Shown here: positions 3,193 through 16,309 of the stretch, one piece after another
Position numbering within the stretch: position 1 is the first letter of the stretch
How the letters are laid out: the number at the start of each line of letters is the position of its first letter
NCBI GenBank assembly: GCA_002696035.1
Contig: NZQV01000006.1
Location: forward strand, 1 to 64,000
DNA: 64,000 nt
Reading direction: 5' to 3'
DNA from: Balneola sp.
GTDB taxonomy: Bacteria; Bacteroidota; Rhodothermia; Balneolales; Balneolaceae
Notes under the pieces: generated by a model
Seen by the model: the letters and a program-made list of their open reading frames with translations, nothing else
Databases searched by the model: none
What the model was told of the DNA's origin: nothing
Position numbers and translations under genes: made by a program

Positions 3193-4455
3193 TTATAACA
3201 TTTTGGGACTGATTACAATCATAGCCCATCCCCATTGTTGCAGGCCACCGGCTTCTCTATTCTGAATAGATTCAAGACTTTTATCATTGAATAGAAGTGA
3301 ATAACCAACTTGCAATCTGATTTCGTTTGTAAACCTATGGTTAACAGAAAAATCCAGTTCCGAAGCAAGTGAACGACTTAATAACTTGGTAGGATCAAGC
3401 GGATCTTCAATTTCATTCGCCAGTGAAAAATGATGATAAACCACATTCAAACTCACTATTTCGGACGCAGTATAATTTACGCTCATATAAATATCCTGTA
3501 GACCGCCATTTTGTGTCTCAGCCGGAATATTTAAAAAATAATCCATATGCCCATAGAACTTATGGTTAGTAGCATAAAGGGTATTAAATGTGTTACCGGA
3601 AGGGTTACTGCCTCCAGCTTCACCTCCCGATAAGTAATCAATTCCACCCGAAAAAGTCAGCGGATTTACACTATAGGATACTTTCAAAGCGGCCATATAT
3701 GCAGATATATTCTCGCGGGCTGCATCGTCACCATTTTGAAAATATAAAGTACCGCTGGCACTTACTTTTTCAGTTGCGTTATAATTGATGTGCGTACCAT
3801 ACGTATATCTGTAGTTCACTTCACCCGGTGAGACTTCAAACCCATCTGTAAGCATTAATCCTGAAATGCTTAATTTTTCAAAATCTTTATTCATCCAGAG
3901 ATAGGAAAGTACCTTGTAGTTATTCAGTGAATAATAGTTTCCCTGTAAATTTTGGATTTCCTGATTGTAAGCCGCCCCCACATCCAGTTTAAATGAGGAT
4001 GAAAGGTTTTTGTACTTAAACACTAATGCGTCGTGACTCCTCGCTTGTTGTGCCCAATTTACGCTTCCGAGTAAGCGTTGATCATCATAAACCAACTCTT
4101 GACGACCTAATTTCAATCCGATCTCGTCTGAAAAGTAAATTTGAGCCCACGCCTCATGGATATTTACATTTGGTGTATCATCTAACTGAGGTACTTCACC
4201 CCAGGTTCTAACGTCTTGAGCAGCGATCTTGAAATCATAAGAATTTCCCTCGTATAACAGTTTTATACGGGTCCGCTGCGAAGTAAAAAAAGCTGGATCA
4301 CTTTGATCTGTATTCAATACTCGATATCCGTCACGGAACTCTGTACGGGGACGAAATTCACCGGTCAAACTAACTTGCGCAAAACCCAATACAGGCAGCA
4401 AAGCGATGCATATTATGCTAGTAATCGTGTAATGAAGTAATTTCATGGAAATCAT
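3193..4455 (-). CDS. Alginate-export-type outer membrane porin
   Basis: A 420-residue outer-membrane beta-barrel with an N-terminal signal peptide ending near GFAQ (residue 27). The region at about residues 117-145 (GRQELVYDDQRLLG, then SVNWAQQARSHDA) is typical of the alginate_exp porin family, and the remainder is alternating amphipathic strands. Despite the family name, such porins in nitrite or copper clusters probably pass small anions; the substrate is inference. It is the last gene of the minus-strand run nirK - FGE-like - SCO - cupredoxin - porin, four bases after the cupredoxin stop, so it is likely co-transcribed. An internal ATG at 4446 is an alternative start. Confidence 0.85.
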   Translation of the reverse strand: MISMKLLHYTITSIICIALLPVLGFAQVSLTGEFRPRTEFRDGYRVLNTDQSDPAFFTSQRTRIKLLYEGNSYDFKIAAQDVRTWGEVPQLDDTPNVNIHEAWAQIYFSDEIGLKLGRQELVYDDQRLLGSVNWAQQARSHDALVFKYKNLSSSFKLDVGAAYNQEIQNLQGNYYSLNNYKVLSYLWMNKDFEKLSISGLMLTDGFEVSPGEVNYRYTYGTHINYNATEKVSASGTLYFQNGDDAARENISAYMAALKVSYSVNPLTFSGGIDYLSGGEAGGSNPSGNTFNTLYATNHKFYGHMDYFLNIPAETQNGGLQDIYMSVNYTASEIVSLNVVYHHFSLANEIEDPLDPTKLLSRSLASELDFSVNHRFTNEIRLQVGYSLLFNDKSLESIQNREAGGLQQWGWAMIVISPKML

Positions 4456-4459
4456 AATT

Positions 4460-4927
4460 TTATCTATTTTTTATTTGTCGCTTTGCTCTATTTAGCGTTT
4501 TCATAACTGCTTCAGGTATGAGCGTATCGTCATAGTCGGGCATGCTTATTTCTGTCCCCGATATAATTCGCCCGGAGTGCCCCATTCGTTCGTGTGGAAG
4601 ACAGAAGTAATCGTACACACCTTTCTCTTTCAATTTCAGAAACCAAACTTCTCCGGCGTTTAGCATACCGGAATCAAACGATTGGGCTTCTTCAGGAATT
4701 CGCTGTGGACGACGGTTATCGGGGTGGTAAGCCGTGACGGTATGCAATCCTTCCACCACTTCGAATCGGATTACATCACCTGGGTCAACCTGCAAAACGG
4801 TAGGCTCAAATCTTGCATCTTCAGCCGTTCCCAGTATTTTTACGGTGAGCGTATCGCTCGGATTACCATAAACCGAAACAGGAATCACCAGTAAAAAAAT
4901 CACCGCTATGTTTATCCAGGTTTTCAT
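4460..4927 (-). CDS. Plastocyanin/azurin-like cupredoxin
   Basis: A 155-residue periplasmic blue-copper protein. A signal peptide spans about residues 1-21. The type 1 copper ligand set can be read as His62 (in EGLHTV) and Cys109, His112 and Met115 (in FCLPHERMGH), spaced as in plastocyanin-like proteins. Such proteins shuttle electrons in the periplasm. Its place between an SCO protein and a porin in the nirK cluster suggests that it is an electron donor to nitrite reductase; this is inference. Confidence 0.88.
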   Translation of the reverse strand: MKTWINIAVIFLLVIPVSVYGNPSDTLTVKILGTAEDARFEPTVLQVDPGDVIRFEVVEGLHTVTAYHPDNRRPQRIPEEAQSFDSGMLNAGEVWFLKLKEKGVYDYFCLPHERMGHSGRIISGTEISMPDYDDTLIPEAVMKTLNRAKRQIKNR

Positions 4928-5023: not shown

Positions 5024-5635
5024 TCAGTTTTTCAACATGGCTGTGATAACTGCTGACGCTTCTTTCATAGATTGGTTTAGGCCTTCCACTCGTTTGGCAA
5101 CTTTGCCTTCTGTATCCAACACGGTCACAAGATTGGAGTGAGCAAAATGTCCGTCACTCGTTTGCTGATATTTTACCCCCAACATGGTCGCCAGCATTTT
5201 GATTTCGGTTCTTTTCCCAGTGATGAAATGCCATTCGGGAAGATCAAGCTGCTCATATTTCGCATAGTCCTTCAATACCTCAGGCGTATCGTTTTCAGTA
5301 TCAAAAGAAATGGCAAGCACTTTTGTTTTGGCTTGAACCGATTCATCAAGGGAACTGAACAATCGCCAGGTATCCTGAATTAAAATCGGACAAACTTGTG
5401 TACAGTTTCCATAAAACATCACCACGATCACCGGTTCACCCTTAAAATCACTAAGCTGTACCACTTTATTCCGGTGATCGATAAACTCAGCATCCAGGTG
5501 ATAGAGCGAATGATCCGCGTGAACTTCTCCGGCTTTTAGAGCCTCTTTTTCATGTTGATGGTGCCGGTGCTGAGCAAAAGCATTCATGGAAAAGATCCCC
5601 AAAAATACCAAGGTATAAGCGATTACTGATTTCAT
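5024..5635 (-). CDS. SCO1/SenC/PrrC family copper chaperone
   Basis: A 203-residue thioredoxin-fold protein with a signal peptide (about residues 1-21), a His-rich stretch just after cleavage (HRHHQH), the SCO copper motif CTQVC at residues 78-82, and the conserved C-terminal histidine in GHFAHSN (about 163-166). SCO proteins deliver copper to oxidases or keep thiols reduced in the periplasm. The ATG overlaps the stop of the upstream FGE-like gene by four bases (ATGA), so translation is likely coupled. In this cluster it is a plausible copper donor for NirK. Confidence 0.92.
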   Translation of the reverse strand: MKSVIAYTLVFLGIFSMNAFAQHRHHQHEKEALKAGEVHADHSLYHLDAEFIDHRNKVVQLSDFKGEPVIVVMFYGNCTQVCPILIQDTWRLFSSLDESVQAKTKVLAISFDTENDTPEVLKDYAKYEQLDLPEWHFITGKRTEIKMLATMLGVKYQQTSDGHFAHSNLVTVLDTEGKVAKRVEGLNQSMKEASAVITAMLKN

Positions 5636-6444
5636 AATGTATTTCCGTTTTCATATTGAGATGTGGGTGCCGGTTCATCATAAGCGCATCGGAAACCGAC
5701 CATTCCGGTGGTTATTTTTGCATTGAAGCTCATTCGTGTGATGTATCGGATAGAAGCTGCATAACTGTACACAGACCCAAGCGTGTTCATCCTACCAACC
5801 GTGCCACAATCCAGCGAAAGTTCATCTGCGATTATGGGCTTGAAATCTTCTACCCATTCCATCACTAGTCCAAACTGATCTTTCACGCCTTCGGTATTTT
5901 CAATTTGGGTTGAACCGACTTCAGCGAGATTATTTACATCAATACCCGAATACCAGTTTATAAGCTCACTGCTAAATGTTCTCATTTCCGTTTTTGATTC
6001 GAATTCCATCAGCTGAGCTGAATATTCCCATTGGTTGAGTGTTGGAAGTCGACCGCCTTGATCTGAACAGTACGCATTGGCCGCATACCATGAAACCCGC
6101 GTTACGGGCCGATTTTCTCCTAATTTTTCATAACCAGGATCCAGATCTGACCTCCATTCTCTGAGGTAACCATCATTCGTAAAAATGGGTGGGATCTCAG
6201 AGCGTCTCCATTCGGGATTCTCTTTCAGGAATTTTACAAATTCTTCGTTCGTAACAGCTGTTTCATCCATGTAAAAGGAATCGACGGGAACCGGCTCGCC
6301 TGGAATTTCCGGTAATACAGAATGAAAAGATCCCTCCGGAACAAGTACTCTTGCCGTTTGCGAAGACGCAACCTCAGGCATGAAAATGGTCATCACAACC
6401 AACAACGGAAGGGCAAGAATTACTCTGTTCGTTTGGGATCTCAT
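5632..6444 (-). CDS. FGE/SUMF1-fold (EgtB/PvdO-like) secreted protein
   Basis: A 270-residue exported protein of the formylglycine-generating-enzyme-like fold: DETAVTNEEF near residue 63, PVTRVSWYAANAYC near 115-128, GGRLPTLNQWEYS near 132-144 and a C-terminal VGFRCAY. The pair of active-site cysteines of true sulfatase-activating enzymes is not evident, so a structural or binding role is as likely as catalysis. The ATG at 6444 starts a good signal peptide; a TTG 33 bases upstream is in frame but less likely. It lies between nirK and the SCO gene, which suggests a role in maturation or electron input to NirK, by context only. Confidence 0.82.
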   Translation of the reverse strand: MRSQTNRVILALPLLVVMTIFMPEVASSQTARVLVPEGSFHSVLPEIPGEPVPVDSFYMDETAVTNEEFVKFLKENPEWRRSEIPPIFTNDGYLREWRSDLDPGYEKLGENRPVTRVSWYAANAYCSDQGGRLPTLNQWEYSAQLMEFESKTEMRTFSSELINWYSGIDVNNLAEVGSTQIENTEGVKDQFGLVMEWVEDFKPIIADELSLDCGTVGRMNTLGSVYSYAASIRYITRMSFNAKITTGMVGFRCAYDEPAPTSQYENGNTL

Positions 6445-6483
6445 GTTATTTAAATTTAGCTTTTTCAATTCGTTCAAGCAGTG

Positions 6484-6675: not shown

Positions 6676-7809
6676 TTATTTCTTACGTGGACCTGCTTTC
6701 AGCGTACCAGTTGCTCCTTTCTCGGCATCCACAAACTCGTGGTCAATCAGGATGTATTTTCCTTCTTCTGGCACGATCATATCCATAGTTGCTGAACCAG
6801 ATGCTCCAAGAAGAACAGTCTGCATTCCTCGCATTTCATTGGATGGATGTCCTTCCAGCCACACGCGGTCAAAGATGCCGCCAATCACGTGGAAACTTGA
6901 AGTACCGCTTGGACCGTTATTGCTAACATGGAATCGTACACGCTCGCCTGCATTGGCTTTCAGTGGCTGGTCGTGAAGGATGGTTTGGTGACCGTTGAAT
7001 ACCACGTGCGAAGGATTGTTGCTTGAAGCTGCTTCGAAATCGTAAGTGTAAAGGTCGCCTGCACCAGGAGTTAAGTAGTATTCACTTTGTACGATCACAT
7101 ATTCGCGATCTACTTCATAACCTGTGTCGTATCCATCTTTTGGAGAAACAACTACTACTCCGTGCTGCCCCATTGCGGTGTGCATCAATACACTTGGAGT
7201 TCCGCAGTGGTAGATGTAAGTACCGGCATAGTTTGCAACCCAGTCAAATTTGATGGTTTCGCCCGGACCAATGGTTCTCCATTTGTCATCCTTAGCTACA
7301 GTACCGGCATGGAAATCCATGGAATGAGGCATTGGCATAATAGCTGCAGAGTTTTTCTGATAAGGATTATTTGCTACCTGATTCATAAACGGTGAGCCGC
7401 CTTTTGCAGGGTCAGTGATGGTAACTTCCTCATCCGAACGGTTTTTCATCACAAAGGTGATCTTATCGCCTTCTTTAACATGAAGTACCGGACCGGGAAC
7501 CGTTCCGCCAAACGTCCATGCCTGGTAGCGAACACCTTCAGCCACTTCAATTTCCTGTACAATGATGTCGATGCGAACTTCGTGGTGTTTGTTGCCTTCA
7601 TAATCCAGCGGGGCCAGATTTGGGAGTTGTGTGACGTACTCCCCGACTACGGGAGGGCCGTCATAATCTTCGGTGTATACTTCTGCTTCCGGCATGCCGA
7701 AGGTCATTCCGTCTAATGTATATTCTTGGGTTTGAGCCGTTAAGAGTGAACTCATGCCAAAGAAAATCATTCCAACTAAAAGAGTGATTTTTGAGATTGC
7801 GCTTTTCAT
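6676..7809 (-). CDS. nirK: Copper-containing nitrite reductase (NirK-type multicopper protein)
   Basis: A 377-residue exported two-cupredoxin protein; nitrite reductases of this type reduce nitrite to NO in the periplasm. A signal peptide spans about residues 1-25. Type 2 copper ligands are visible at His167, His201 and His307, and the catalytic Asp165 (MDFH) and His268 (SHVVFNG) are present. Type 1 ligands His162, Cys202 and His210 are present, but the expected axial Met five residues after His210 is Gln215. It is the first gene of a minus-strand cluster with FGE-like, SCO, cupredoxin and porin genes. A palindrome of the AAGACA-N4-TGTCTT type lies about 30 bases upstream of the ATG. A non-nitrite multicopper oxidase is the main alternative. 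Confidence 0.85.
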   Translation of the reverse strand: MKSAISKITLLVGMIFFGMSSLLTAQTQEYTLDGMTFGMPEAEVYTEDYDGPPVVGEYVTQLPNLAPLDYEGNKHHEVRIDIIVQEIEVAEGVRYQAWTFGGTVPGPVLHVKEGDKITFVMKNRSDEEVTITDPAKGGSPFMNQVANNPYQKNSAAIMPMPHSMDFHAGTVAKDDKWRTIGPGETIKFDWVANYAGTYIYHCGTPSVLMHTAMGQHGVVVVSPKDGYDTGYEVDREYVIVQSEYYLTPGAGDLYTYDFEAASSNNPSHVVFNGHQTILHDQPLKANAGERVRFHVSNNGPSGTSSFHVIGGIFDRVWLEGHPSNEMRGMQTVLLGASGSATMDMIVPEEGKYILIDHEFVDAEKGATGTLKAGPRKK

Positions 7810-9934: not shown

Positions 9935-11731
9935 TTAGGCTACAGCCAATTGAAACATTTGTTCTAAGCGAGCTTTTTCTGCTTCAACGGTAGTTTTTAT
10001 GGATTCCAGATTTTCTCCTTCGTATCCATTTGAATGGGCTATCTCCAGACAATAATCCATTCCGGCTTCTAGGTTATCGCGGAATTTGGTGAGTTTACGA
10101 TTTTCATTGGGATCTGAATCCGATACATCGATCAGGTCCTGCAGATAATCCACATACATGCGCATTTCCTTGGCAAACATGTGCGGACGATCTCCATCCA
10201 CCAAAGACTCTCCCCTTCCATAGATATGGTTCAGCATTTCTTCGAGTGAATATTCACCATTGAAATAAGCAATGTTTGGCCCAGGACAAATGGCTTGTGG
10301 TGAACGGCTTTCCTTCTGTATACCCAGTTGAATCAGCGCTCCGTTACCAAGATGATCACACAAACAAGCTTTGTCTAATACTTTGGTCTTGAGCCGCCCT
10401 TTCTTGTCTTCAGCATAATCAGCTTGGGTGATCTGGTCGATCTTCAGCAACTGATATTGTGTTGAGGCTGTACAGATTGGGTTTTCAGTAAACTCGGTAT
10501 TCGATTCCAGAAAGCCTTTTGGACACGGTGACCCTGGTTTTCCTTTCTCGATTCTTTCTTCATGCCATATCCGGGAACCTGTCTGACGCACATTGTTGAA
10601 AGGTACGCCCAAAGGTGAAACTCCACTTAGATACAGATCTTCCTCTTTCGCATTTTCCAGCAACGATCTTGTCGTTTGATCGACGGTGGTCGCTTCGGGA
10701 ACCAATAAAAAAGGACTCCCCCAACCAGTAGAATCCATATCATATTCTTTGATTAATCGCTGCATTTCTCCATGCGTTCCAATACCACCCTGAACAGTAA
10801 TTCGTGGTTCCTCGAATTTCCAGTCTGGTGAAAAACCATCGCGCTCATCCTCATAAAATTTCTCCACAAGCGGACGGATAGCCGAGCTCAACATTTCTTT
10901 TTTCTCTTTGAATTCTTTCAACAAAACCGGCAGCAACAAGCCATCGGTAGCAAAAGCATGTCCACCACAATTCAACCCGGATTCGATCCGATATTCAAAT
11001 ACTTCCAATCCCTTTTTGGCAAGATATTTTCCTTGAATCAGCGCAGAGCGGAAATCACTCACTTTAAGGATGATCTTCTTTTTGATGTTACCTGAGGCAT
11101 CACGGTAAAAGTCCTGAAATTCAGCTAAATAATTGTATAACCGGGGATTAAATCCAGCAGATAGAATGAGGTTAGAAGATAGCTTACTATTTGCATATCC
11201 GCGCAGAGCAGCACTTCCATCGCTGTATTCAGCGCTCATTGGTTCACCCGATTTGGTGAGGTTGAGTTTATCCACCTTCGCCATGATGTTCACATCAATG
11301 GAGCCGGGCTGCATCAGGTTGTTCAGTTTTTCTGCCAAATTTTGACGCTCACTTTCGGCCGTATCCATCAGCTTCTGATAGGCTGTTTTTAGTGAACTTT
11401 CATCCGGCAGCATGCGAAAATATTTAGCCTTGTCATTATCACTTAAAAAAGGCTCTGTTCTCAGCTCCTCGAATTTCTGATGTACAATATCATGGACCAA
11501 ATTGAGGTAAGCCGTGATGCGTTTTGCACGGCCATCTTCAGCAGATCGCGGGATATTCTTATAGGGAAGTGCGAATTTCTCGGCGTAATACTTCCTGATC
11601 TTTTCGACGAGCAGGTCATCCACAACAGAGATGACCGAATTAATACCATAGGGCGCAACTCGGATAGGTGAATCGATGGAGTGCCCGGTTCCCATTACAG
11701 GAATGGAAAAAGTGTGTAAAGATGAATTCAT
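9935..11731 (-). CDS. Conserved ~600-residue protein of unknown function, possibly NPD/FMN-barrel-like
   Basis: A 598-residue cytosolic protein I cannot name. Its start (TFSIPVMGTGHSID) and the later segments ESGLNCGGHAF near residue 255 and VQGGIGTHGE near 315 recall FMN-dependent nitronate-monooxygenase-like barrels, where GGHAG and GGI motifs bind flavin phosphate. The C-terminal third has five cysteines spaced C-X16-C-X35-C-X-C-X23-C, which could bind an Fe-S cluster or metal. The ATG at 11731 follows GAGG by nine bases; a GTG at 11746 is less likely. It is the last gene of the mevalonate run, but a 130-base gap with an operator-like palindrome suggests an extra promoter. Confidence 0.75.
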   Translation of the reverse strand: MNSSLHTFSIPVMGTGHSIDSPIRVAPYGINSVISVVDDLLVEKIRKYYAEKFALPYKNIPRSAEDGRAKRITAYLNLVHDIVHQKFEELRTEPFLSDNDKAKYFRMLPDESSLKTAYQKLMDTAESERQNLAEKLNNLMQPGSIDVNIMAKVDKLNLTKSGEPMSAEYSDGSAALRGYANSKLSSNLILSAGFNPRLYNYLAEFQDFYRDASGNIKKKIILKVSDFRSALIQGKYLAKKGLEVFEYRIESGLNCGGHAFATDGLLLPVLLKEFKEKKEMLSSAIRPLVEKFYEDERDGFSPDWKFEEPRITVQGGIGTHGEMQRLIKEYDMDSTGWGSPFLLVPEATTVDQTTRSLLENAKEEDLYLSGVSPLGVPFNNVRQTGSRIWHEERIEKGKPGSPCPKGFLESNTEFTENPICTASTQYQLLKIDQITQADYAEDKKGRLKTKVLDKACLCDHLGNGALIQLGIQKESRSPQAICPGPNIAYFNGEYSLEEMLNHIYGRGESLVDGDRPHMFAKEMRMYVDYLQDLIDVSDSDPNENRKLTKFRDNLEAGMDYCLEIAHSNGYEGENLESIKTTVEAEKARLEQMFQLAVA

Positions 11732-11780
11732 AGATACTGACCTCACAAAATTAGGTGTCTTAAGCGGTTTATTCCTATTT

Positions 11781-11861: not shown

Positions 11862-14138
11862 TCAGCTCTCGGTAGATTTGATCTCAGCTATCAATGCATC
11901 AAACCCGGATTCATGCATTTTTTTCTGGATCTTCTTCTGAGCCGATTCTGAATCACAAAGTGCGATCATAGCACCTCCGCCTCCACCACCAGTCAGTTTT
12001 GCGCCAAGAGCCCCATTCGTTCTGGCAATTTCAATAAGTTCTTCCACTTCCGGTGATGAAACCCCCAGCGTATTCAGATAGCCATGATTCATGTTCATGA
12101 TCATACCCAGCTCTTCCAGATCGCGGTCTTCAATGGCATTTTTCGAAGCAAGCGCCAATTCATCCATCTGATCAAAGATCTGCTTGTACCATTTTGGATA
12201 TTTTTCTGCCTGCTCCCGAACCTGCTTTACCATTTTGGACGTCATACTTTCCACCCCGCTCAATCCGATCACGATAGGTATAGATTCTGTCAAATTAAGG
12301 GTATCCATTTTAGGAGGAGTTCCTTTTTGGAACATGATCAGGTTTCCATAGGTCGATACCGTATTATCAATTCCTGATGCACCGCCATGGACAATATTTT
12401 CAGACTCAAAAGACAATCGGCGTACATCGTCGTCTCCCAATCCCAGCTCAAAATGCTTATTCAGCGCCCGGATGATCGCTACAGCCAGCGCTGCAGAACC
12501 CCCCATTCCCATTGCTCTTGGCACTTCCGGGAACACTTCGATATTCATGGCTTTGTCCCGCAGATCAAGATGATCAAGGATCATTTCCAGTGATCTGTAA
12601 ATAGAATATTGGTGATCCGCTCCAAATTCCAGGGTTTGCTCCACGCCCCATCTCGGGATCATAAGTCGTACGCCTTTATCATGATCCCAGACCTTTGCTT
12701 TCATTTTTAGGGTAATGGGAGCCGCCACGGCATGGGTTCCATGCACCACCGAGTGCTCGCCGGTCAGGATGATCTTTCCGTATCCAAACGACATCTCGTC
12801 ATCCTTTTCAGGAGTTGGAGCAGACACTTGCCCAATACTTTGTTCCTGCTGAAGTTCAGCAACGATCTCTTTGGCCTTCCACACTTTGATCTCTCCGCTT
12901 TCCACAAGTCGCTCCAGCACCTGTTCAAATAATTCAGCCGGAGCCCCAGCAGTACTTGCCACGCTTCGGGCATGCAGGGTCATATGGCCGCGCTGAATGC
13001 CTTCGGTTCCCAGTGAACGCAAGGCGGAAAAGTTTTGGGCTAACCCTACAGCTCCCATTATTTCAGCCAGTTCCGTCGCTTTCTCTATCCCTAAAATTCG
13101 ATGTGCAATTCCAACGGCTCTGTTGGATTTCAGAGATCCGCCTACGGTTCCAACTTTCAGAGGAATATCGATAGTTCCGACCAGGTCTCCATTTTCATTC
13201 TTGAACCAGTTTGTGAGTGAGGTATAACGTCCGGTGCGTGCAGCATAAGCATGGGCAGCTGCTTCAATGGCCCGCCAGTCGTTGCCGGTAGCGATGGCAA
13301 GCGGATCGATCCCATTCATGATTCCCTTGTTATGGGTAGAAGCACGATATGGATCCACAGCAGCAAATTCGGCTGCGCGTATAATTCCATCACGCACTTC
13401 CTTCCCGGAAGAATCGTTGAAGTCCAGATATTTGGTTGGGATCTCACACTTGGCCCGAACCATGGCCCGATCCGTTAAATTCGACAAGATCCGAAGATAT
13501 ACTTTTGAACCGGATATCTTTTCAACCAGGGAGGCCACACCTTCGCACATACTGTTCACCAAATTTGCGCCCATGGCATCCTGCGTATCTACCAACAAAT
13601 GAACGACCACCATGCTGCCGGGATGGCGATCCTGCTGATGGATCATCACCTCCAGATCAATAGCTCCGCCGCCACGTTTTACCATATTGGGGTGAAGACT
13701 ATTGGCGAGATTCAGGATCTCCTGCTTATCCTGTAAAATAGCATGGCGCACTTTCATAGGGTGACGCACATCCACGAGCTGAATTTGACCGATCAATATT
13801 GGATCATCAGATTCCACTTGAAATCCGCCGGCTTTTCGAACCACTTTGGCCGCTGAACTGACAGCAGCTAATATTGAAGGTTCTTCTACCACCATCGGCA
13901 CGATGTACGGTTTATCATTGATCAAAAAATTGAGTCCCAATCCCATAGGAAGGCCAAATACCCCGATCACATTTTCGATCATCTTATCGGCGTCATCCTG
14001 CGTTAACAGGTGCATTTGCTCACGGAGAGAAATATAATCTTCCTGATTCAGGATGCCTTTATCTCGCAGAATATCGAGACGATTTTCAACGCTGTACTTA
14101 TAAAATTTCGGGATTCTTGATTTGTCGTTATTGCTCAT
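11862..14138 (-). CDS. Fused class II HMG-CoA reductase - mevalonate kinase
   Basis: A 758-residue protein with two complete mevalonate-pathway enzymes. Residues about 8-430 are class II (Pseudomonas mevalonii-type) HMG-CoA reductase: catalytic Glu in VVEEPS (83-88), Lys271 in HNKGIMNG, Asp287 in GNDWRA and His385 in RGHM. Residues about 450-758 are a GHMP mevalonate kinase: YGKIILTGEHSVVHG, PRAMGMGGSAAL (540-551), Asp591 in GASGIDN and LTGGGGGGAM (715-724). A Gln/Glu/Pro-rich linker at 430-449 joins them. The fusion would make mevalonate and phosphorylate it in one polypeptide. It follows the phosphomevalonate kinase gene after about 57 bases. Both sets of catalytic residues look intact. Confidence 0.93.
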   Translation of the reverse strand: MSNNDKSRIPKFYKYSVENRLDILRDKGILNQEDYISLREQMHLLTQDDADKMIENVIGVFGLPMGLGLNFLINDKPYIVPMVVEEPSILAAVSSAAKVVRKAGGFQVESDDPILIGQIQLVDVRHPMKVRHAILQDKQEILNLANSLHPNMVKRGGGAIDLEVMIHQQDRHPGSMVVVHLLVDTQDAMGANLVNSMCEGVASLVEKISGSKVYLRILSNLTDRAMVRAKCEIPTKYLDFNDSSGKEVRDGIIRAAEFAAVDPYRASTHNKGIMNGIDPLAIATGNDWRAIEAAAHAYAARTGRYTSLTNWFKNENGDLVGTIDIPLKVGTVGGSLKSNRAVGIAHRILGIEKATELAEIMGAVGLAQNFSALRSLGTEGIQRGHMTLHARSVASTAGAPAELFEQVLERLVESGEIKVWKAKEIVAELQQEQSIGQVSAPTPEKDDEMSFGYGKIILTGEHSVVHGTHAVAAPITLKMKAKVWDHDKGVRLMIPRWGVEQTLEFGADHQYSIYRSLEMILDHLDLRDKAMNIEVFPEVPRAMGMGGSAALAVAIIRALNKHFELGLGDDDVRRLSFESENIVHGGASGIDNTVSTYGNLIMFQKGTPPKMDTLNLTESIPIVIGLSGVESMTSKMVKQVREQAEKYPKWYKQIFDQMDELALASKNAIEDRDLEELGMIMNMNHGYLNTLGVSSPEVEELIEIARTNGALGAKLTGGGGGGAMIALCDSESAQKKIQKKMHESGFDALIAEIKSTES

Positions 14139-14195: not shown

Positions 14196-15272
14196 TTAGC
14201 TGACATCCTGAGTTTTGGAGATCTGAATACCTTCTGGTTGAACTTCAAGGTTCATCAGGTCAAATACGCTTTCGTCAATGGCCCGTTTGATCTTGTTCAT
14301 GGTTTCCTGATCGCTACAAAAAGCAATTCCGATATCACCACCACCTGCTCCGGATGGTTTATAGGTGCCACCCTGATTTTTAACAATGGAATAAATTTCT
14401 TCGTGTACATCCGACATGATCTCCGTGCCACTTTGTTTGCCAAGCTCTCGTTCGCATTCAGCATAATCTGAAATAACCTGTAGGAAAGCGTTTGTATTGC
14501 CAGCTCCAAAGGTCTTCACTCCTTCTTTAGAGAGATCAGTCATCTTTGTGATAATAGAATTGTAGGCAGCAGAATTCTCTTCTCTGAATGTGTTCACACT
14601 TCGCACAAAATGGCGTGTTGAAGCCGAATATCCTGCCCAGATGCATGCCATGTAAAGGTCCTCAGGCCTATCGATGCGCTTAATAGTACCATTGGGGTTA
14701 TCAGGATTATCCGGCATGGTATAACTTAAAATGCCGCCGGTAGCACTTGCTGCAATATCCACTCCACTGCCCATTTTTCCTTGAGCATATCGGTGTGCCT
14801 GAAAAGCTTCTCGATACAGATCTTTTGTAGACATCTCCACCCCCATGTACTCCATCAACCCTGATAAAAGCGAAACCGTAAGTGCGGCACTTGAACCTAG
14901 CCCGAATTTATGTCCGGTGACCCGATGGTAGAAAGAGGACGTATCTATCTGGATAGAAGCACCCGGGATCTTTCCGAATTTCTGTGATACATATTTCAAA
15001 ATGCAAAGCACAAACTTCAGCTGGTCTTGGGTATCAGAATCTATGGTAGTCCGAAAATGAGCATCACCATCTGCATCAAGTATAAACTGGATCTCGGGAA
15101 TATTCAGGTTGGGTGTGCGAACCTGAAACGTGCTATTATATAACGAATCGATATGTACTTCACACTGTCTATTAACGGCAGCAACCAGCGCAGGTGCGCC
15201 TTCAAGCACGGCATATTCTCCCAAAAGAATGAGTTTTCCGGGTGATGAAACGTTGATGGTAATGTCGTCCAT
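14196..15272 (-). CDS. Phosphomevalonate kinase (GHMP family)
   Basis: A 358-residue GHMP kinase: N-terminal SPGKLILLGEYAVLEGAPA (residues 10-28), ATP loop HKFGLGSSAALTVS near 126-139 and C-terminal KPSGAGGGDIG near 304-314. It most resembles bacterial phosphomevalonate kinases, which convert 5-phosphomevalonate to the diphosphate. Its ATG shares a base with the mvaD stop (TAATG), so the two are translationally coupled. Mevalonate kinase is already present as a fusion downstream, which supports the phosphomevalonate assignment. Confidence 0.88.
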   Translation of the reverse strand: MDDITINVSSPGKLILLGEYAVLEGAPALVAAVNRQCEVHIDSLYNSTFQVRTPNLNIPEIQFILDADGDAHFRTTIDSDTQDQLKFVLCILKYVSQKFGKIPGASIQIDTSSFYHRVTGHKFGLGSSAALTVSLLSGLMEYMGVEMSTKDLYREAFQAHRYAQGKMGSGVDIAASATGGILSYTMPDNPDNPNGTIKRIDRPEDLYMACIWAGYSASTRHFVRSVNTFREENSAAYNSIITKMTDLSKEGVKTFGAGNTNAFLQVISDYAECERELGKQSGTEIMSDVHEEIYSIVKNQGGTYKPSGAGGGDIGIAFCSDQETMNKIKRAIDESVFDLMNLEVQPEGIQISKTQDVS

Positions 15273-16309
15273 TATAAGATGATTTCTTTCTCCGGGTCTA
15301 CTATATGTGCTGCAGTCCCCGGTTTTGCTTCAATTATGTGTTCCACTCCTTTCACGCCCAATACTGCTTCTTTTATCGTCTCGACCGATTCAGGCAGACA
15401 CAAGATCTTAACCTGAGGGCCGGCATCAATTGTCAAGTAAGCCTGTATTCCGTTCTGGCGGAGTTTCCACACTCTATGAATTGTTTCTGTGGTCGCAGCA
15501 TTCCAATATAATATAGGAGGCCTGGCAGCTAAGGCAAGACCGTGCATTTTAAAACAGCTATGCTCGGTAAGCTCTCCGACTTTTTCAAAATCTCTGGCTG
15601 AAAGTGCTTTTTTCATCTCCTCAAGATCTGTGGGCTGAGATGCGATCCATTCATCATAAAATGGAGCCGTTTGTGCGGTCCGGTTCATGCCTTCTGTAGA
15701 ACCCAGTTCTTTCTTTTGGGTTGAGGTAACTGCGACAAGCAGACGTACATCCCAGTGTGATTGATCATGAAGCTGAATTGCAACATCTTCACTTCCATCT
15801 TCTTTGGTTCCAAGCTTCATCTCACAAAACCCGCCATACAAAGACCGCGCTGCAGATCCTGATCCCTGTCTTGCCAAAGCAGAAAGGGAAATTCGGTCTA
15901 AATTCAACCCAAAACGGTCATTCACGGCCAGCGCCAATGCGGCAAATCCTGAAGCTGATGATGCAAGTCCCGCTCCGGTTGGAAAATTATTTTCACTTTC
16001 GATATGAGCCTTTGGACGATCTTTGGTTCCAGCCGCAAGATCAAGAAAATCAGAAATACGTCTTAGCTGCTTTCCTTCTACCTCTTTCTCATTCAGAACA
16101 AAAATATCCTGATCTAAACGATCTTTCAGTTCGAGATTGGTTTTGGAGTAGAGGGCGTCCAAGGTAAGAGAGATAGAACCCACCGCAGGCAAATTATTTT
16201 GCACAGCACGCTTTCCCCAATATTTAACAAGTGCAATATTGGAGTGTGCTACCGCCGTAACGGAACCAGATCTGTAACCTTCGATGTTTGAGTGATTGAG
16301 GTTTTCCAC
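15272..16309 (-). CDS. mvaD: Diphosphomevalonate decarboxylase
   Basis: A 345-residue GHMP-fold enzyme that decarboxylates mevalonate diphosphate to isopentenyl diphosphate. Key stretches are SNIALVKYWGKR near residues 23-34, the ATP loop FPTGAGLASSASG near 109-121, RQGSGSAARSLYGG near 145-158 and AGPQVK near 295. The N-terminal KYWGKR is characteristic of the decarboxylase. It is the promoter-proximal gene of the mevalonate operon. An isopentenyl-diphosphate isomerase and HMG-CoA synthase are not in the window. Confidence 0.94.
   Translation of the reverse strand: MENLNHSNIEGYRSGSVTAVAHSNIALVKYWGKRAVQNNLPAVGSISLTLDALYSKTNLELKDRLDQDIFVLNEKEVEGKQLRRISDFLDLAAGTKDRPKAHIESENNFPTGAGLASSASGFAALALAVNDRFGLNLDRISLSALARQGSGSAARSLYGGFCEMKLGTKEDGSEDVAIQLHDQSHWDVRLLVAVTSTQKKELGSTEGMNRTAQTAPFYDEWIASQPTDLEEMKKALSARDFEKVGELTEHSCFKMHGLALAARPPILYWNAATTETIHRVWKLRQNGIQAYLTIDAGPQVKILCLPESVETIKEAVLGVKGVEHIIEAKPGTAAHIVDPEKEIIL

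Follow-up and report, generated by a model that had tools for sequence, protein, structure and literature searches.

NirK-type copper nitrite reductases usually hold their type 1 (T1) copper with two His, a Cys and an axial Met. The locus described here raises the question of which residue takes the axial place when the Met column is occupied by a Gln, and what such an exchange would mean for the enzyme. The gene (6676..7809, minus strand, as for all features of this protein and its cluster given below) lies in a stretch of 64,000 nt of contig NZQV01000006.1 of the marine bacterium Balneola sp., from here on called the window, and is an intact open reading frame for a nirK-like, two-domain copper nitrite reductase of 377 amino acids.

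Active-site residues and the axial position

The N-terminus of the translated protein is hydrophobic and resembles a signal peptide. A search of the PDB returned NirK matches with E values from 1e-64 to 1e-24, the best solved match being GtNirK of Geobacillus (3WKQ; E 1.7e-64; roughly 43% identity), followed by AniA, three-domain enzymes and 6HBE (9.7e-37), the structure of TsNirK from Thermus scotoductus SA-01. The score with the TIGR02376 model, 184.6 bits, is under the equivalog cut-off of 296.3, but this is not decisive for membership because the Thermus thermophilus orthologue of TsNirK likewise falls short of it (155.1 bits). The NirK core ends some five residues before the C-terminus, and there is no fused cupredoxin domain. 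A laccase-like or CopA-like identity was ruled out by weak scores and by the ligand pattern.

Alignment with solved NirKs confirmed most of the residue assignments of the original prediction. The sensing loop HSMDFH (7309..7326) carries His162 (type 1 ligand), Asp165 (catalytic) and His167 (type 2 ligand), and the motif HCGTPSVLMH (7180..7209) carries His201 (type 2) together with Cys202 and His210 (type 1). Two assignments had to be changed. His307 (SSFHVIG; 6889..6891), taken before for a type 2 ligand, aligns with the catalytic His216 of TsNirK and with SSFHVVG of GtNirK; the third type 2 ligand is instead His357 (LIDHEF; 6739..6741), which aligns with LVTHVF in 6HBE and IVTHQF in 3WKQ and matches TsNirK His267, a type 2 ligand that the neighbouring subunit contributes through its domain II (PMC6400189). 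His268, formerly the catalytic His, stands in a column where other NirKs have Tyr, Phe, Gln or Ile, and is neither catalytic nor a ligand. With 6HBE and 3WKQ as guides, the three type 2 His (His167, His201, His357) and the catalytic pair (Asp165, His307) are all found, while Ile309, Gln330 and Thr331 align with other recognised active-site positions, the latter two with the Gln239/Thr240 region of TsNirK. Judged by the alignment, the protein has every residue that nitrite reduction is known to require.

The T1 motif reads HCGTPSVLMHTAMGQHG, with the spacing Cys202-x7-His210-x4-Gln215. In a multiple alignment including both structures, Gln215 (codon CAG; 7165..7167), five residues after His210 (His+5), shares its column with the axial Met of 3WKQ and with Gln130 of 6HBE, and the stretch from His210 to Gln215 is free of gaps. 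It is thus Gln215, and not Met213 (7171..7173; His+3), that occupies the axial column, as had been claimed. The accompanying premise, that the axial ligand of known NirKs is Met, holds for 3WKQ but is out of date: TsNirK, a proven NirK, has Gln instead (PMC6400189), and Met is therefore usual, not defining. In the 1.63 Å TsNirK structure of Opperman and colleagues, Gln130 is bound to the T1 copper in a His2-Cys-Gln coordination, and the enzyme is an active nitrite reductase with a turnover of 65 per second (PMC6400189). This coordination by a Gln at His+5 is strong, if indirect, support for copper binding by Gln215: the T1 site of the window protein is most likely of the stellacyanin type too, with Gln215 very probably holding the copper axially in place of the usual Met. 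The AlphaFold2 model of the protein, from 12 sequences, has a mean pLDDT of 41.7 and was set aside as too poor. A sequencing or assembly error behind Gln215 was ruled out, since each of the 26 distinct sequences of the clade described below has the residue, and these come from independent genomes.

The original prediction had named Met213 as an alternative ligand. A rearranged loop could bring this residue to the copper, leaving Gln215 in the second sphere of an ordinary His2-Cys-Met site, and it is true that the MGQ motif, and with it Met213, occurs without exception in the Gln clade, that Ser or Tyr takes this place in the Met-type sister clade, so that the presence of Met213 and the Met-to-Gln change at His+5 go together, and that small cupredoxins with amicyanin spacing, the neighbouring one among them, have their axial Met at His+3. 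We nevertheless regard this arrangement as distinctly improbable: the alignment needs no gap between His210 and Gln215, the only solved Gln case (6HBE) has its ligand at His+5 and a Gly at His+3, and the Cys-to-His loop of the window protein is of the long NirK type, not of the short amicyanin type.

The reading that we prefer, with a probability of about three in four, is that the protein is a periplasmic two-domain copper nitrite reductase with Gln215 as the axial T1 ligand. On its sequence, we file it as a variant of NirK in the broad, class II/III-like sense; Asp165 and the two-domain build place it outside the definition of a TsNirK-type enzyme. TsNirK (three domains; 6HBE; PMC6400189) shares the axial Gln at His+5, the type 2 ligands, the catalytic His and the Gln/Thr pair (239/240 in TsNirK), but it has Ser in place of the catalytic Asp in the sensing loop, a Cys-to-His spacing longer by two residues and a C-terminal cupredoxin domain, where the Balneola protein, about 34% identical, has Asp165, a longer loop before the T1 His and a separate cupredoxin gene (4460-4927). 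The two-domain GtNirK of Geobacillus (3WKQ and others) has the same Cys-to-His spacing and the same catalytic and type 2 residues, but an axial Met and no long loop before the T1 His. NirKs fused to haem c (RpNiR, 3ziy; Met-type NirK of Balneolaceae) have the core fold and active-site residues in common with the window protein and differ in their axial Met and C-terminal haem c domain. With the stellacyanins, which are plant phytocyanins, the likeness is the (here predicted) Gln as fourth T1 copper ligand; these are single-domain cupredoxins, and the analogy is one of a single ligand, not of family membership.

Neighbouring genes and a candidate electron donor

Most Balneolaceae members of the Gln clade have the same three kinds of gene behind nirK. 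In the window and at ten Balneolaceae loci these follow in the same order: an FGE-sulfatase/SUMF1-like gene (5632..6477; PF03781, 5e-25), a SCO1/SenC gene (5024..5635; PF02630, 1.4e-20) and a gene for a small cupredoxin (4460..4927; PF00127, 6e-8), which we propose as the electron donor. An outer membrane porin of the Alginate_exp type (3193..4455; PF13372, 7e-12) closes the cluster here and at loci L033 and L039, as it does in some genomes only. The alignment of the clustered cupredoxins shows a conserved His and a Cys-x2-His-x2-Met loop, with Leu replacing the Met in two of the 11; the fused domain of TsNirK likewise has C-x2-H-x2-M (CSIHPYM). In the divergent genome G360, an azurin-like cupredoxin is encoded directly downstream of nirK, and genome G227 has both kinds. 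No recognised cupredoxin gene was found near nirK at L044 or G602, nor was a cupredoxin or haem c gene adjacent at any of the four loci examined in the Met sister clade.

Genome G227 and Fodinibius roseus each carry a second NirK, of the Met type, no more than about 9 kb away from the Gln-type cluster. It has haem c at its C-terminus and FGE and SCO genes of its own; the one of G227 scores above the TIGR02376 cut-off (351.5 bits). As the cupredoxin gene is clustered with the Gln-type nirK while the Met-type NirK of these two genomes is fused to haem c, the gene order suggests that the Gln-type enzyme uses a cupredoxin donor. The genes for NirK-haem c, FGE and SCO near the Gln-type cluster (L040, 2513-9034; L125, 3936-16492) form, with the latter, two paralogous modules, which are adjacent in Fodinibius roseus.

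Two further observations concern the surroundings of the cluster. Near nirK in the window, a gene on the minus strand (9935-11746) specifies a protein of 603 amino acids that matches nothing in Pfam, NCBIfam or PADLOC. It occurs directly upstream of nirK at L033 and L034, and a homologue (5e-158) lies near the Met-type relative in L121; the gene is possibly linked to nitrite or NO. Beyond it (11862-14138, minus), an open reading frame for 758 amino acids fuses an HMG-CoA reductase (PF00368) to a GHMP kinase resembling mevalonate kinase and adjoins further mevalonate-pathway genes (14196-15272 and 15272-16309); G227 has an open reading frame of similar length with a like start and setting (L125, 8976-11297).

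Distribution and origin of the Gln clade

The genomes searched were 394 from the phylum, 244 from the class, 199 from the phylum to which an Acidobacteria MAG belongs and 146 from the family that contains the nearest Met-type relative; the species-genome contigs were scanned in addition. The genome searches and the contig scan together gave 26 distinct sequences, from Gracilimonas, Fodinibius/Aliifodinibius, Rhodohalobacter and other Balneolaceae or Bacteroidota bins, including the divergent Balneolaceae G360 and G602, a partial sequence (G626) and one from the Acidobacteria MAG (L044). All 26 have Gln at His+5, down to some 53-58% identity, and all have M-G-Q; the remaining NirKs in the alignment carry an axial Met, save two with Leu, one with Ile and two Thermus-type sequences with Gln. 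The Gln at the T1 site of this clade is real, conserved and biochemically meaningful. The clade is also set apart by a lineage-specific loop before the T1 His, in the window protein at residues ~125-160 (7330..7437; counted as 37 residues): the stretch measures 37-65 residues in the Gln clade against six in canonical NirK and 12-22 in the Met sister clade. The literature that we searched contained no Gln NirK other than TsNirK, and no M150Q variant; the lineage is thus apparently new to that literature, while the kind of site is already known from TsNirK, whose crystal structure with a Gln ligand lowers the novelty of a Gln-ligated NirK.

Several other NirK-like sequences came to light. The Gln-type NirK on the Acidobacteria MAG contig (L044, 5980-7071) is 57% identical to a Balneolaceae protein, which would reflect either lateral transfer or a binning error. 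Three NirK-like proteins of the Acidobacteria set (L050, L054, L055) have Leu or Ile as their axial T1 residue, like high-potential laccases. On plasmids of Pseudomonas aeruginosa, a gene for a NirK-like "multicopper oxidase" with the NirK ligand pattern and an axial Met (L082, 3088-3864) is situated between transposase and resistance genes. A scan of viral contigs for further NirK sequences yielded one fragment.

In trees built with the insertion and the axial region taken out, the Gln clade received a support of 99 (quick tree) and 90/87 (careful tree), and its union with the Met sister clade, nine Met enzymes from another Bacteroidota family, 99/96. TsNirK and its T. thermophilus orthologue cluster with L053, which has Met. 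As part of the preferred reading and at the same confidence, one NirK clade would have acquired the Met-to-Gln change in its ancestor, where it became fixed together with the longer loop before the T1 His. We favour a gain of Gln independent of that in Thermus, two gains being the simplest reading. Descent of both from a single Gln-bearing ancestor, with no second gain, would account for the pattern H-T-x-x-G-Q-[HF]-G that the Balneolaceae clade and Thermus-type NirK have in common, and when the Gln clade and the whole Thermus-type group are forced together, the tree is 18 log units worse, with a p-AU of 0.074, short of formal rejection; such descent nonetheless appears rather doubtful, given that in the best trees the Gln clade has the Met sister clade as its neighbour (99/96), that the Thermus-type relative L053 carries Met and that a single origin requires reversals to Met. 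Forcing the Gln rows alone into one clade gave p-AU values of 1e-5 to 1e-10, but this test is biased, as it splits Thermus from its Met relative L053, and we do not rely on it because L053 is left out.

Expected potential and physiological role

The axial ligand is a main control on the potential of type 1 copper. In rusticyanin, the exchange M148Q brought the potential from 667 to 563 mV, a drop of ~100 mV (PMC11881046), while a Met-to-Leu replacement in AxNiR raised it by 96 mV, with effects on activity that depended on the donor (PMC13324648). By analogy with these replacements, Gln215 should lower the T1 potential, favour transfer from T1 to type 2 copper and disfavour electron uptake from high-potential donors. 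The protein matrix can offset the ligand, as stellacyanin (Gln) has 265 mV and AcNiR (Met) 240 mV (PMC11881046). The lowered potential of the original prediction is thus plausible; the unusual spectra that it also foresaw are not guaranteed, because the overall UV-visible spectrum of TsNirK is blue and unremarkable (PMC6400189).

From the sequence we infer copper binding by Gln215, nitrite reductase activity, the identity of the donor and the lowered potential. His162, Cys202 and His210 would bind the T1 copper, with the side-chain oxygen of Gln215 as the axial ligand. This copper would take up electrons, probably from the small cupredoxin of the same cluster, and hand them across the Cys202-His201 bridge to the type 2 copper, bound by His167, His201 and, from the neighbouring subunit, His357, where nitrite would be reduced to NO with protons from Asp165 and His307.

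A profile search of the genome for NosZ and the qNor-type NorB domain found neither a NosZ above the cut-off nor a qNor-type NorB, which agrees with the report on the Gracilimonas tropica genome, where nirK is present and reductases for nitrate, NO and N2O were not found (PMC4642740). These absences, the score under the TIGR02376 cut-off and the second, Met-type NirK of some relatives would all suit a protein of NirK architecture with a main job other than respiratory nitrite reduction, e.g., nitrite/NO homeostasis or oxidase chemistry with a dedicated cupredoxin. Such a role seems unlikely to us, as all nitrite-reducing residues are retained and nitrite reductases are its nearest relatives of known structure. 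Incomplete denitrification chains are common, and they are no argument against the production of NO.

The likely cupredoxin partner is fused in Thermus, and separately encoded and clustered in Balneolaceae. It is a tentative possibility, with few independent cases to draw on, that NirK exchanged Met for Gln on two or more occasions, on each of them with a cupredoxin as its likely immediate partner, and that the axial ligand would be a switch by which the T1 potential is retuned to the class of donor. In TsNirK, the one characterised Gln NirK, the effect of Gln is not separable from those of the Ser that replaces the catalytic Asp and of the fused cupredoxin. The natural Gln NirKs of the Balneolaceae clade retain the standard catalytic pair, lack a third domain and come with a separable cupredoxin, and some genomes of the clade offer a nearby Met-type NirK for direct comparison.
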